Origin: Salinisphaera japonica YTM-1
GTDB taxonomy: Bacteria > Pseudomonadota > Gammaproteobacteria > Nevskiales > Salinisphaeraceae
Reading direction: 5' to 3'
DNA length: 52,417 nucleotides
Assembly: GCF_003788585.1 (NCBI RefSeq)
Contig: NZ_AYKG01000019.1
Location: 1-52,417 of the forward strand
The position numbers and the translations under genes were made by a program. Below are positions 40,535-45,617 of this stretch, piece after piece. The notes beneath the pieces are model-generated. The model did not search any database. It was not told the origin of the DNA and saw only the letters and a list, made by a program, of their open reading frames with translations. How positions within the stretch are numbered: position 1 is the stretch's first letter; every line of letters starts with the position of its first letter.

Positions 40535-41065
40535 TCACGTGAGAATCGACAATGCCTCGGCAAACGCATCGTGAGCCTCATCGGAAAACAACACGAAGCG
40601 CGCCCGGCGCAGCGAAATGACCGAGCGCGCGGCCTCGCCCACGGTTTCCATGGCGATCGTGGCGGCCTCACTCAGCGGATACCCATAGATGCCGGCCGAT
40701 ATCGCGGGAAACGCGATCGAGGCCGCGGCCTTGTCTTCAGCCAGCTCAATGGCCGTGCGATAGCAGGCCGCCAACTGCGGGGGCACATCCGGGTCATCGG
40801 AATAGACCGGCCCGGCACAATGCACCACCCAATCATTGGGCAGATCGAAGGCCGGCGTGATCACGCCTTGCCCGGCGCTGATGGGCGCCAGTGCGCGGCT
40901 GGCCTCGACCAGCTGCGGCCCGGCTGCGCGATGAATCGCGCCGTCGACACCGCCACCGCCCTTGAGCTGTTGGTTGGCCGCGTTGACGATCACCTCGATA
41001 TCGCCCTGATCGGTGATATCGCCCTTGATGCATTCGATGGTCATCTCGCCGATGGCGCGCTGCAT
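40535..41065 (-). CDS. Macrodomain protein (O-acetyl-ADP-ribose deacetylase-like)
   Basis: A 176-residue macrodomain. Ligand loops: IKGDITDQGDIEVIVNAANQQLKGGGGVDGAIHRAAG (about 12-48), where the Asn of NAAN and the GGGGVDGAIH loop bind ADP-ribose, and FPAISAGIYGYPLSEAATIAM (about 126-146), the second loop. This is the YmdB/MacroD type, which removes ADP-ribose or deacetylates O-acetyl-ADP-ribose. Start is ATG 41065 (MQRAIGEMTIECIKG); ATG 41044 is an alternative. Divergent from the DUF2254 gene, whose start is 55 nt away. Confidence 0.88.
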   Translation of the reverse strand: MQRAIGEMTIECIKGDITDQGDIEVIVNAANQQLKGGGGVDGAIHRAAGPQLVEASRALAPISAGQGVITPAFDLPNDWVVHCAGPVYSDDPDVPPQLAACYRTAIELAEDKAAASIAFPAISAGIYGYPLSEAATIAMETVGEAARSVISLRRARFVLFSDEAHDAFAEALSILT

Positions 41066-41120
41066 AACTCGTGCTCTGTTTGCCTGTAAAGTCGCCCCAT
41101 ATTTACGCGATGGAGCCCCT

Positions 41121-42470
41121 GTGGCCAAGCTTGTCCAATTCTGGACCGCCATACAGAACAGCTACTGGTTCATTCCCTCGGTGATGTCGCTGGGGGCGGC
41201 TCTGCTGTCGTTTTTGCTGGCCGCCGCCGACGGCTGGCTGGGTAATTCGTGGATCGATGCGGTGCCCTGGGTCTATCGCGTACAAGCCTCGGGCGCGCGC
41301 GACGTGCTGACCACGGTGGCCGGCTCGATGATCGGCGTGGCCGGGGTGACGTTCTCGATCACGATCGCTGCCCTGTCCTACACCACCACGATTCTGGGCC
41401 CCCGCCTGCTCACCAACTTCATGAGCGACAAGGGTAATCAGATTACGCTGGGCACGTTTCTGGCCACCTTCACTTATTGCCTGTTGCTGCTGCGCACGAT
41501 TCAGGCCAGCAACGACACGGGCACCACCTTCGTGCCGCATCTGTCGATCCTGTTCGCGATCATGCTGGCGATGGCCAGCCTGGCGGTGTTGATCTATTTC
41601 ATTCATCACATCGCCGAATCGCTGCATGTGTCCAACGTCATCGCCGATATCGCGGCTGATCTGGATCGGGCGATCGAGGCTTTCGATAATCGCTCGCGCG
41701 ATACCGAAGACCGCCAGCCGGCCGCGGCCCTGCCCACCGATTTCCTAGAGCGCTCGGCCCCCGTGCGGGCCACCCAGGACGGTTATATCCAGAACATGGC
41801 GCACGCCACGATCGTGAACGCCGCCTTCAAGCACGATCTGGTGGTGCGCGTAGAGCGCGTGCCGGGCGATTTCGTGGCCGAGCAACAGATTCTGGCGCGT
41901 GTGTGGCCGGCCGATGCGCTCGACAACAGCAATATAGAGGGCACGGTACAACGCGCCTATGCCATCGGCAGCCAGCGCACCAAGCCACAGGACGTGCTCT
42001 TTCTGGTCAACGAGCTGGTCGAGATCGCGGCCCGTGCCCTGTCGCCCGGCACCAACGACCCGTATACCGCCATGAGTTGCCTGGACTGGCTGGTTGCCTC
42101 GCTCAACCGCCTGGCGCGTCGGCGCATGCCCTCGTTGACCTATTTCGATGACAACGACGTGCTGCGGCTCTGGGCGCCAACGTTCGATTTCGAGGCTCTG
42201 GCCAACGCCATCTTCGATCAGCTGCGCTGCTATTTCGCCACCGACGTGAATGCGGCCGTTCACATGCTCGACCGGCTGGGCGAATGCGGCGAGTTCATAG
42301 GCCGCTCGACCGATCGCGACCTGTTGCATGCCCATGCCAAAGCGCTCGACACCGCGGCCCGGCCCAATATCCACAACCCGCGCGACGAGGCACGGCTCGA
42401 TGAAGCCGCCCGGCGTGCCGATCGCTTGTTGACACACCCCGACGAGCGCCGCGGCGCACTGCCCGCTTGA
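41121..42470 (+). CDS. DUF2254 family membrane protein
   Basis: A 449-residue inner-membrane protein. Four N-terminal membrane segments (about 13-35, 60-85, 105-125, 135-160) include VLTTVAGSMIGVAGVTFSITIAALSYTTTILGPRLLTNFM, the hallmark of DUF2254. The large soluble C-terminal part has GYIQNMAHATIVNAAFKHDLVVRVERVPGDFV and ALSPGTNDPYTAMSCLDWL. Function unknown. The GTG start at 41121 is chosen because GGAG lies 5 nt upstream; longer versions would run into the divergent macrodomain gene. Confidence 0.85.
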   Translation: MAKLVQFWTAIQNSYWFIPSVMSLGAALLSFLLAAADGWLGNSWIDAVPWVYRVQASGARDVLTTVAGSMIGVAGVTFSITIAALSYTTTILGPRLLTNFMSDKGNQITLGTFLATFTYCLLLLRTIQASNDTGTTFVPHLSILFAIMLAMASLAVLIYFIHHIAESLHVSNVIADIAADLDRAIEAFDNRSRDTEDRQPAAALPTDFLERSAPVRATQDGYIQNMAHATIVNAAFKHDLVVRVERVPGDFVAEQQILARVWPADALDNSNIEGTVQRAYAIGSQRTKPQDVLFLVNELVEIAARALSPGTNDPYTAMSCLDWLVASLNRLARRRMPSLTYFDDNDVLRLWAPTFDFEALANAIFDQLRCYFATDVNAAVHMLDRLGECGEFIGRSTDRDLLHAHAKALDTAARPNIHNPRDEARLDEAARRADRLLTHPDERRGALPA

Positions 42471-44664: not shown

Positions 44665-44703
44665 TGCCCCTCGGCTCGAAGGAAACGCGTGCTTTTTTCA
44701 ACC

Positions 44704-44732
44704 TTGACCCGAATTTAGCACCTCGCTATATT
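44704..44732 (+). promoter_or_regulatory. Near-consensus sigma70 promoter in front of the NYN unit
   Basis: TTGACC (44704-44709), exactly 17 bases, then TATATT (44727-44732). This is the best promoter match I saw in the window. It would start RNA near 44739, about 8 nt before the hairpin at 44747, and it lies after the end of the oligopeptidase gene, so the hairpin downstream is not simply that gene's terminator. Confidence 0.75.
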
Positions 44733-44738
44733 TCAACC

Positions 44739-44801
44739 GTATAGCGCCCATGAGGCTTAACCGGTAGCGATATCACCGGAGCGGCCTCATGGGTTTTTTT
44801 T
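44739..44801 (+). ncRNA. Candidate structured leader or small RNA ending in an intrinsic terminator
   Basis: From the predicted start, about 63 nt run to the T-tract. The RNA would consist almost entirely of a hairpin: CCCATGAGGC (44747-44756) pairs perfectly with GCCTCATGGG (44784-44793); inside it CCGGT (44761-44765) pairs with ACCGG (44775-44779); then T8. A five-codon frame ATG-AGG-CTT-AAC-CGG-TAG begins in the 5' arm (44750-44767) without an RBS. Either a free small RNA, or an attenuating leader for the NYN gene that starts 18 nt after the T-run. I do not recognise a known riboswitch class. Confidence 0.5.
44747..44801 (+). terminator. Strong intrinsic terminator/attenuator before the NYN gene
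   Basis: A 10-bp perfect stem with an inner 5-bp stem and a run of eight T (44794-44801). Located between its own promoter and the RBS (AAGGAG 44808-44813) of the NYN gene, so read-through must be regulated or partial for the gene to be expressed from this promoter. Confidence 0.85.
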
Positions 44802-44818
44802 GGCTGGAAGGAGCGACG

Positions 44819-45508
44819 ATGAAGACCGCGATATTGATCGATGGTGGCTTCTTCGTCCGGCGTTACAGGTCGATCAAGGCACGCGTGGCGCCTGATCAGG
44901 CGATTACCGCTGACGTTATGGCAAGAGATATTTCGGCTTCTGCCTACCGATGGATCCGTAAAGCAAATCCGATTGGTCACAAACGCCGCGAGCTTTATCG
45001 TATTTTCTTTTACGACTGTGCGCCGACTCGGTACAACGCCGGCCCGCATCCGATAACCGGGGAGATCGTTCGCGTCGAAGACACGATTGATTTCGGATTC
45101 AGACAGGATCTGCACGCCAAGTTGCGACAACAACGAAAAATGGCGCTTCGTCTGGGCGAGATTCAAGCGAAGAACGGCGATTGGACGTTGACGCCCGGCG
45201 CGATCAAACAATTGCGTCGCGGCATATGCCTTGAAGATCTGGATCGGTCGGCGATGTACTACAAGGTCAAGCAGTCTGGCGTCGATATGCGTATCGGGCT
45301 GGATATCGCATCGCTGGCTCAACAACAGGCTGTCGATCAAATTATTCTAGTGGCTGGTGATTCTGACTTCGTACCAGCATCAAAAATGGCCCGACGCAAC
45401 GGCATCGATTTCATTCTCGACCCGATGTGGAATCCGATCAAACCCGATCTCAACGAGCACATCGATGGCTTGTGTTCAGTCATGCCGAACCCGGATCGAG
45501 CGCGTTGA
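44819..45508 (+). CDS. NYN-domain protein (PIN-like ribonuclease, LabA/DUF88 type)
   Basis: A 229-residue protein with the acidic site of NYN/PIN nucleases: D8 in MKTAILIDGGFFV, D66 in RIFFYDCAP, D156 and D162 in SGVDMRIGLDIASLA, and D181/D183 in IILVAGDSDFVPASKMARRNG. These fold like PIN-domain RNases and are expected to cut RNA using metal ions. The start at 44819 has an excellent RBS (AAGGAG, 5 nt spacing). An in-frame ATG at 44789, inside the hairpin and preceded by GGAG, could add 10 residues (MGFFWLEGAT), but these do not fit the fold. The gene looks less GC-rich than its neighbours, hinting at acquisition. Preceded by the promoter-hairpin-T8 leader. Confidence 0.85.
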   Translation: MKTAILIDGGFFVRRYRSIKARVAPDQAITADVMARDISASAYRWIRKANPIGHKRRELYRIFFYDCAPTRYNAGPHPITGEIVRVEDTIDFGFRQDLHAKLRQQRKMALRLGEIQAKNGDWTLTPGAIKQLRRGICLEDLDRSAMYYKVKQSGVDMRIGLDIASLAQQQAVDQIILVAGDSDFVPASKMARRNGIDFILDPMWNPIKPDLNEHIDGLCSVMPNPDRAR

Positions 45509-45617
45509 TTTGGGATTCGCCCGACCTTTGCCCGCCACTATGTTAAATCGGGGGCAAGTGGCAACGCGTATCATAAGTCAACGTTTTCAAATGTTTGACT
45601 AACAGGTCGTAGCCATC

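Follow-up and report, generated by a model that had tools for sequence, protein, structure and literature searches.

A short hairpin RNA with a promoter-like sequence in front of it and a terminator-like tail behind it precedes the gene of an NYN-domain protein in Salinisphaera japonica YTM-1, and comparison of homologous loci shows that the RNA and the gene are kept as a pair and move together. We consider, with a probability of about one half, that the two form a mobile two-part module, in which excess hairpin RNA is recognised by the NYN protein and restrains a predicted RNase, probably for phage defence. The unit is located in the window, by which we mean the whole stretch of 52,417 nt that was analysed. 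A first-pass annotation of this DNA had pointed to a possible undescribed RNA-RNase unit, which might be an attenuator, a stand-alone RNA of about 63 nt or a type III toxin-antitoxin-like layout. The unit itself is real, since its hairpin is conserved and covarying among related leaders and its T-rich tail is retained.

The promoter, stem, inner stem, eight T, ribosome-binding site and NYN gene were all found by sequence reading where that annotation had located them, on the forward strand. The sigma-70-type promoter (44704..44732; 10/12) comprises TTGACC (44704-44709), a 17-nt spacer and TATATT (44727-44732), and the predicted transcription start lies about 8 nt 5' of the outer stem. The predicted small RNA of about 62 nt (44739..44801; putative ends), recognised from its fold and from a match to the model R2 described below, has an intrinsic terminator at its end. 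Its outer stem, apparent from the sequence, the fold and covariation, pairs CCCATGAGGC (44747..44756) with GCCTCATGGG (44784..44793) in 10 perfect pairs, to which folding adds a G-U pair at each end. An internal loop, with UUAA on the 5' side (44757..44760) and AGCG on the 3' side (44780..44783), encloses an inner stem-loop (44761..44779) formed by CCGGT (44761-44765) and ACCGG (44775-44779). The terminator tail of eight T (44794..44801) is followed by the ribosome-binding site AAGGAG (44808..44813), and the gene for the NYN-domain (PIN-like) predicted RNase (44819..45508; 229 aa; PHROG 5783) opens at ATG 44819 and closes with a stop codon ending at 45508. An alternative ATG at 44789, inside the hairpin, opens the same frame; ATG 44819 fits better with the ribosome-binding site and with the homologues.

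The window hairpin exceeds chance and is no chance terminator. It folds at -30.2 kcal/mol versus -16.8 +/- 3.1 in shuffles (z -4.3), none of 200 shuffles being equally stable, and on neither strand of the 52 kb is there another perfect 10-bp inverted repeat whose loop measures 20-40 nt and whose next 10 letters include six or more T; none was found by the same criterion in 10 shuffles. The promoter is present as annotated, and promoter-like sites recur in related leaders at about the same distance from the stem, but taken alone the window promoter is at chance level, with two promoter-like sites in 4 kb against 1.3 +/- 1.1 expected. The Rfam scan of the window gave no family at gathering score. 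A Macro-domain gene (40535-41152, minus strand) is located about 3.6 kb upstream of the promoter-hairpin-NYN unit.

To describe the RNA as a family, 80 genome loci and 20 viral loci with NYN homologues were compared (100 sources, 652 kb), and in more than half of the 100 a hairpin with a U-tract lies directly before the start codon. Thinning of 44 leaders, by which near-copies and one chance stem (L072) were dropped, left 34 non-redundant leaders, and these were the seeds of a covariance model, R1. In the form common to them, an outer stem of about 8 bp leads to an internal loop in which AGUA(A/C) faces CGA(N), and beyond it an inner stem opens with GC/GC and bears a loop often containing AUCC. 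In the 34 leaders, 13 of the 15 predicted pairs have changed on both sides, 94.5% of the pair cells are paired versus 72.9% in shuffles, and 118 cells have changed on both sides versus 28.9; all slid versions score far lower. Within the internal loop, GUA and, opposite to it, the A of CGA are invariant in these leaders, which is more than termination alone needs. The AGUA/GA internal loop may be bulged-G-like, as in the sarcin-ricin loop.

R1 gave 53 matches at E <= 1 in the 100 sources, L002 and L006 being one site, and at each of the remaining 51 sites, including the 34 seeds, an NYN start codon follows after 5-54 nt; 47 of the 100 sources, among them the window and L007/L008, gave no match. 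Of 79 related leaders, 76 have a T-rich tail (at least five T in 10) behind the stem, versus about six at random places. Promoter-like sites are present in 41 of 80 related leaders versus 5.9 in shuffles (maximum 11 in 100 rounds), and in 22 of these 41 the -10 box is 11-14 nt before the stem, so that the predicted transcript would be little more than the hairpin. Covariation of the stem, which the first-pass annotation had proposed to look for in homologous leaders, is seen, and its remark that tandem repeats are absent agrees with the single hairpin in the window and with the lack of a second R1 match at all 85 matched loci. Rfam searches of 20 homologue loci found only tRNA, C4, c4-a1b1 and Acido-Lenti-1 families, none of them at the leader. 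In L012, L028, L037 and L045, a distance of about 90 to 1,200 nt separates the tRNA genes from the leader downstream, which suggests tRNA-linked islands. The C4 antisense RNA and its c4-a1b1 target, which are phage immunity RNAs, lie about 0.8 kb upstream of the RNA-NYN unit in L017 (1938-2121), and the Acido-Lenti-1 RNA (RF01687) about 0.6 kb upstream of that in L020 (2210-2274, minus strand).

The window protein and those of L007, L008 and L246, which come from the family of Halomonas ramblicola (Halomonadaceae), form a clade (100/100) that falls inside the type B homologues, whose leaders mostly have AGUA opposite CGAAA. The four window-type leaders have YUAA opposite AGCR instead (CUAA and AGCA in the three Halomonadaceae copies); all 64 of their pair cells are paired and four pairs have changed on both sides, although four sequences are few. 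The Halomonadaceae copies (L244, identical with L007; L245, identical with L008; and L246) retain TTGAC and TATACT promoter boxes. R1 matches neither the window nor these leaders, while it does find the B-type leaders L219, L010 and L220 (E 5.9e-5, 1.6e-4 and 3.7e-3). A second model, R2, has 12 seed sequences, which belong to types A and B and include none of the window type, and its top match in 63 kb is window 44739-44800 (21.3 bits, E 8.5e-4), followed by the three Halomonadaceae copies. The alignment spans the stem, an AUAG-like flank and the U-tail and leaves the middle 33 nt, the core, unaligned, so part of the score reflects likeness to a terminator. On these alignments, the window copy appears to belong to a divergent branch of the NYN-leader RNA, grouped with Halomonadaceae. 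R2 also matched 12 of the 47 further loci, in L259 away from the leader; it was silent on L039, L055, L080, L096, L256, L258, L269 and L271, and the odder hairpins among them (part of types D and E) are therefore without demonstrated kinship. Scans of viral sequences for the window-type core and for a Pseudomonas-type pattern found nothing.

The product of the window gene matches Pfam NYN (PF01936) at residues 151-197 (E 6.4e-8; 33.7 bits versus a cut-off of 24.2), which is its sole Pfam domain at E <= 0.001, so that it falls outside the ToxN/AbiQ toxin family. It matches phrog_5783, a phage family without assigned function (E 4.3e-71), and the PADLOC defence model of LabA-like NYN nucleases (E 8.2e-7); no NCBIfam model matched. 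An AlphaFold2 model from 44 aligned sequences reached a pLDDT of 91.3. NYN domains ranked first when it was compared by VIA-align, with mouse and human MARF1 at Z 15.7 and 15.5 (5yaa, 15.7) and VPA0982 at 15.4 (2qip), and the T5 5'-exonuclease came after them at Z 10.4. Foldseek with the same model returned nothing at E <= 0.001 and no NYN entry among the 50 matches listed, and a sequence search of the PDB gave a single designed protein at E 0.097. Residues D8, D66, D156, D162, D181 and D183 are invariant in all 44 aligned rows; D8 and D181 are the two that the first-pass annotation had singled out. The predicted structure thus has an NYN/PIN-like fold with conserved acidic residues, and the protein is a predicted RNase.

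The RNA-NYN cassette is mobile. In the window it stands between a prolyl oligopeptidase gene upstream and an L,D-transpeptidase gene, and in one relative (G011, 81% complete), on which the empty site rests, both neighbours are present (89.9% and 87.3% identity) and the gap between the aligned blocks measures 94 nt versus 900 in the window. The inserted cassette would thus span approximately 44665..45540; the other four transpeptidase loci align in the transpeptidase gene only. The NYN gene has a GC content of 53.3% versus 64.4% for the window, and only 0.5% of 690-nt stretches are equally low, so the lower GC, which the first-pass annotation had taken as a hint of a mobile unit, is borne out. 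A search for NYN gave 5 genomes out of 61 near relatives and 19 out of 369 from the class, the own genome and partial matches being counted in both, and 16 out of 275 from the family to which H. ramblicola belongs. The neighbours differ between genomes: by the names read by eye, DNA polymerase I is upstream in L007 and L008, and IMP dehydrogenase-like and GMP synthase-like genes flank the unit in L009. The R1-type rows of the protein tree span at least six phyla.

NYN homologues were also found in 162 plasmid records, 134 of them from Campylobacter, and in 15 phage records. The gene is located between a LexA-family regulator and an N-like gene in Escherichia phage ev099, after a LexA-family regulator in Proteus phage Brookers, and between an XRE regulator and the integrase in Streptococcus phage Javan85; it therefore adjoins a repressor-type regulator in three of the five phage records viewed, while it follows the terminase gene in Moraxella phage Mcat4 and has neighbours without names in Dorea phage DO134P1. 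Superinfection-exclusion genes often adjoin the repressor in phages, and the repressor-adjacent position of NYN in three of five phages thus makes phage defence a likely use. All eight named phage and plasmid records have, by eye, a hairpin near the start codon (with a weak tail in Campylobacter), and R1 matches three of the eight. On a Thermus plasmid (L272, 136-6693), NYN is flanked by helicase-related and N-6 DNA methylase genes and may be part of a defence operon.

Protein and RNA may have changed together. The tree comprises 118 of the 128 distinct NYN proteins, short, partial and leaderless ones being omitted; its RNA labels were partly set by hand, L076 being moved from RNA-less to RNA-bearing (R2, E 0.011), and seven distant rows are omitted from the residue counts. 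K153 is found in 75 of 75 rows with canonical RNA, in none of 27 RNA-less rows and in none of the four window-type rows. D145 follows this pattern at the 90% threshold and K73 at the 85% threshold, both with lower conservation than K153. Three shared losses among 73 conserved columns have a P of about 0.008 (85% threshold) and two among 65 a P of 0.04 (90% threshold), in a post hoc comparison with about two independent events. In addition, L047, which has an odd RNA, carries T153, and L224 carries A145. The loss of K153, together with K73 and D145, in homologues that have no RNA or an RNA with an altered core hints that NYN touches the RNA core, with K73, D145 and K153 as candidate contact residues.

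The RNA-less clade (27 homologues, 100/100 support; 26 named Rhodanobacteraceae and one Lysobacterales) retains the presumed catalytic acidic residues. Neither R1 nor R2 has a match at E <= 1 at any of its 27 loci; R1 also found none in 16 genomes of the clade, an empty result that proves little, and window-type variants would escape this model. L043, L056 and L067 have similar neighbours, which suggests that they represent one stable locus. In this clade the enzyme exists without the RNA, perhaps in an altered role. An obligatory antitoxin would hardly be so lost, and the clade counts against the antitoxin reading to that extent.

The RNA also occurs without NYN. When the RNA was searched for by itself, the 61 genomes gave a single match, before NYN, and 398 genomes gave eight matches, of which four precede NYN, one precedes an apparently cut NYN and three have no NYN within 1.5 kb. 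Viral contigs searched by pattern gave 19 R1 matches: 10 with NYN (two on contigs already fetched by NYN), one at a contig end and eight without NYN, of which two have short downstream sequence and one, L123, is probably due to chance because it has no U-tract. The solo copies L118 (62 bits), L152 (59) and L122 (56) retain the stem, the core, a U-rich tail and promoter-like sequence, and may be remnants of lost NYN genes. In L118 (9219-10178), a viral contig, the RNA lies after two genes that look repressor-like by eye and before a RelA_SpoT-domain gene; in L152 (9255-9569, minus strand) it abuts a truncated ToxN_toxin gene (PF13958, E 1.6e-18) on the other strand. In L236 (1501-1553) the RNA, again solo, has an N6_Mtase gene on one side and a candidate type I specificity gene (PF01420 just below cut-off) on the other. 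In L200 (3146-3200) the gene directly downstream is not NYN but a small one that contains an RNA polymerase alpha C-terminal domain (PF03118). In L111 (4550-4780), near the contig end, the promoter-like sequence that precedes the RNA has a near-copy immediately behind the RNA. In E. coli the leader is present in 274 of 5,426 genomes, while leader plus gene is covered to 80% or more in 73; among the 25 matches listed, the match extends over only 473-480 of 983 bases in 17, mostly O157:H7, and the annotated gene in EDL933 has 390 bases. These E. coli copies are close relatives and represent no independent events.

A relative of the RNA probably exists in Staphylococcus aureus. Rfam TEG147 (RF03535) scores 52.6 bits (E 1.8e-10) at the NYN leader of Javan85, just below its gathering score of 56.1, and the core GAGAGUA of that leader recurs in the consensus GAGAGUA...CGAAA of TEG147. 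The window site gives 15 bits (E 9.1), far below the same gathering score; it is the only match at E <= 10 in its own genome, and the match is weak because 10 of 14 control genomes also give one. The TEG147 consensus has no match in phages, plasmids or viral contigs. In the passages of PMC5826253 that deal with it, Teg147 is a bona fide 60-nt sRNA expressed in S. aureus HG003 (386294-386353 in the HG003/NCTC8325 table), kept as trans-acting by curators who excluded processed UTRs, riboswitches and products of premature termination. A passage of PMC3053349 places it on a genomic island, and according to the part of PMC7779021 concerned the family came into Rfam via a course. Sequence likeness thus makes a relationship between Teg147 and the NYN-leader RNA probable.

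In the module that we favour, most transcripts would end at the U-tract as free RNAs of about 60 nt, and the NYN mRNA would arise when the polymerase occasionally reads through; the terminator would thereby set the ratio of the two, with the RNA abundant and the enzyme rare. NYN would recognise the hairpin core, and the excess RNA would hold a potentially toxic RNase in check, most likely in the manner of type III antitoxins and as the AbiF RNA does. This reading is favoured because the RNA covaries, precedes NYN, exists solo and appears to coevolve with K153, and because NYN adjoins repressor-type regulators in three of the phages; it is weakened by the RNA-less clade, by the absence of tandem repeats and by the two of five phage records in which no repressor adjoins NYN. 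Its main rival is that the hairpin acts only in cis: it would terminate transcription conditionally, NYN might bind or cut it in autoregulation, and the short RNA would have no later role. This is possible but the less probable view to us: the retained T-rich tails, the short distance of 5-54 nt to the gene, the cis-regulatory type label of TEG147 in Rfam and the existence of RNA-less NYN all suit an attenuator, whereas solo copies that keep stem, core and U-rich tail, and the curation of Teg147 as a trans-acting sRNA in the part of PMC5826253 cited above, speak against it. Copies without NYN and the expression of Teg147 support an action in trans, and with it the stand-alone RNA of the first-pass annotation gains ground, while its attenuator and type III-like readings are not separated by sequence alone.

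The same evidence of a conserved core, linkage and coevolution would fit equally if the RNA were an activator, guide or cofactor that NYN needs, not an inhibitor; however, beyond the inner stem and the short loop the RNA has no variable guide-like segment, and the RNA-less homologues retain the presumed catalytic residues, so we regard such a role as unlikely. It is very improbable that the hairpin just terminates the upstream gene or serves as an insulator and has nothing to do with NYN in particular. Its position just after the peptidase gene and its strong terminator form would agree with that, but the sole relative with an empty site has other sequence between both neighbour genes, upstream genes vary among the genomes viewed while RNA and NYN remain together, and the conserved internal loop and covariation contradict it. 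We give just as little credence to a riboswitch that controls NYN in response to a small molecule or an ion: the internal loop does have invariant letters and the terminator could serve as expression platform, yet in an RNA of about 60 nt a single hairpin would have to be both aptamer and terminator, which leaves hardly any space for an alternative fold, some copies have no NYN downstream, and mobile elements, not metabolism, are often the setting.

The results join a widespread phage family of unassigned function (PHROG 5783) to a structured, strongly covarying RNA and suggest a partner for Teg147, an S. aureus sRNA that is so far unexplained. Should the RNA hold the RNase in check, PIN-like nucleases would join the enzymes controlled by RNA antitoxins, and such antitoxins would include single hairpins without repeats; the module reading can be tested directly by way of the candidate contact residues and the natural RNA-less clade. 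More speculatively, the unit could represent a new class of RNA-restrained toxin or defence RNase, in which a single hairpin, perhaps as a mimic of the enzyme's target, neutralises an NYN/PIN-like protein; the unit would spread on phages and plasmids, and solo RNAs, perhaps including Teg147, would be orphan antitoxins or phage anti-defence RNAs.

Among known systems, the NYN/LabA-like RNases (PF01936), such as MARF1 and VPA0982, have the fold and the acidic residues in common with the window protein, and we know of no RNA partner of such a hairpin type for them. No paper that pairs NYN genes with a hairpin RNA was found in the open-licence literature searched; the word "undescribed" in the first-pass annotation therefore holds for the NYN link in the papers searched, but not for the RNA, whose relative TEG147 is already in Rfam. 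TEG147 resembles the NYN leaders in its GAGAGUA...CGAAA core, stem, U-tail and length of 60 nt, and differs in that even the Javan85 leader stays under its gathering score and the window lies far lower. In the C. difficile prophage system AbiF/RCd22, according to the passages of PMC12373285 on it, a small RNA with its own promoter and terminator precedes a protein gene, is co-transcribed into it and binds the protein. The likeness to the window unit is one of layout, but there the protein is of the Abi_2/AbiD/F type, the RNA has two motifs of RF03085 and the interaction was tested, whereas here we argue from sequence; the window protein is NYN, not Abi_2 (HEPN), and no Rfam family reaches gathering score in the window, which places the unit outside AbiF. 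Type III systems (ToxIN, CptIN, TenpIN) resemble the window unit in their order of antitoxin RNA, intrinsic terminator and RNase gene, which in those systems are co-transcribed according to the passages of PMC12373285 concerned. The terminator between RNA and gene is present in the window in sequence form, and a shared promoter may be indicated there by the promoter-like sites; for ToxIN an anti-phage role is given in abstracts. The unit falls outside type III because it has no tandem repeats and a toxin of another family than ToxN/AbiQ: where type III systems combine repeats with a ToxN-family enzyme, here one hairpin would neutralise an NYN/PIN-like protein.
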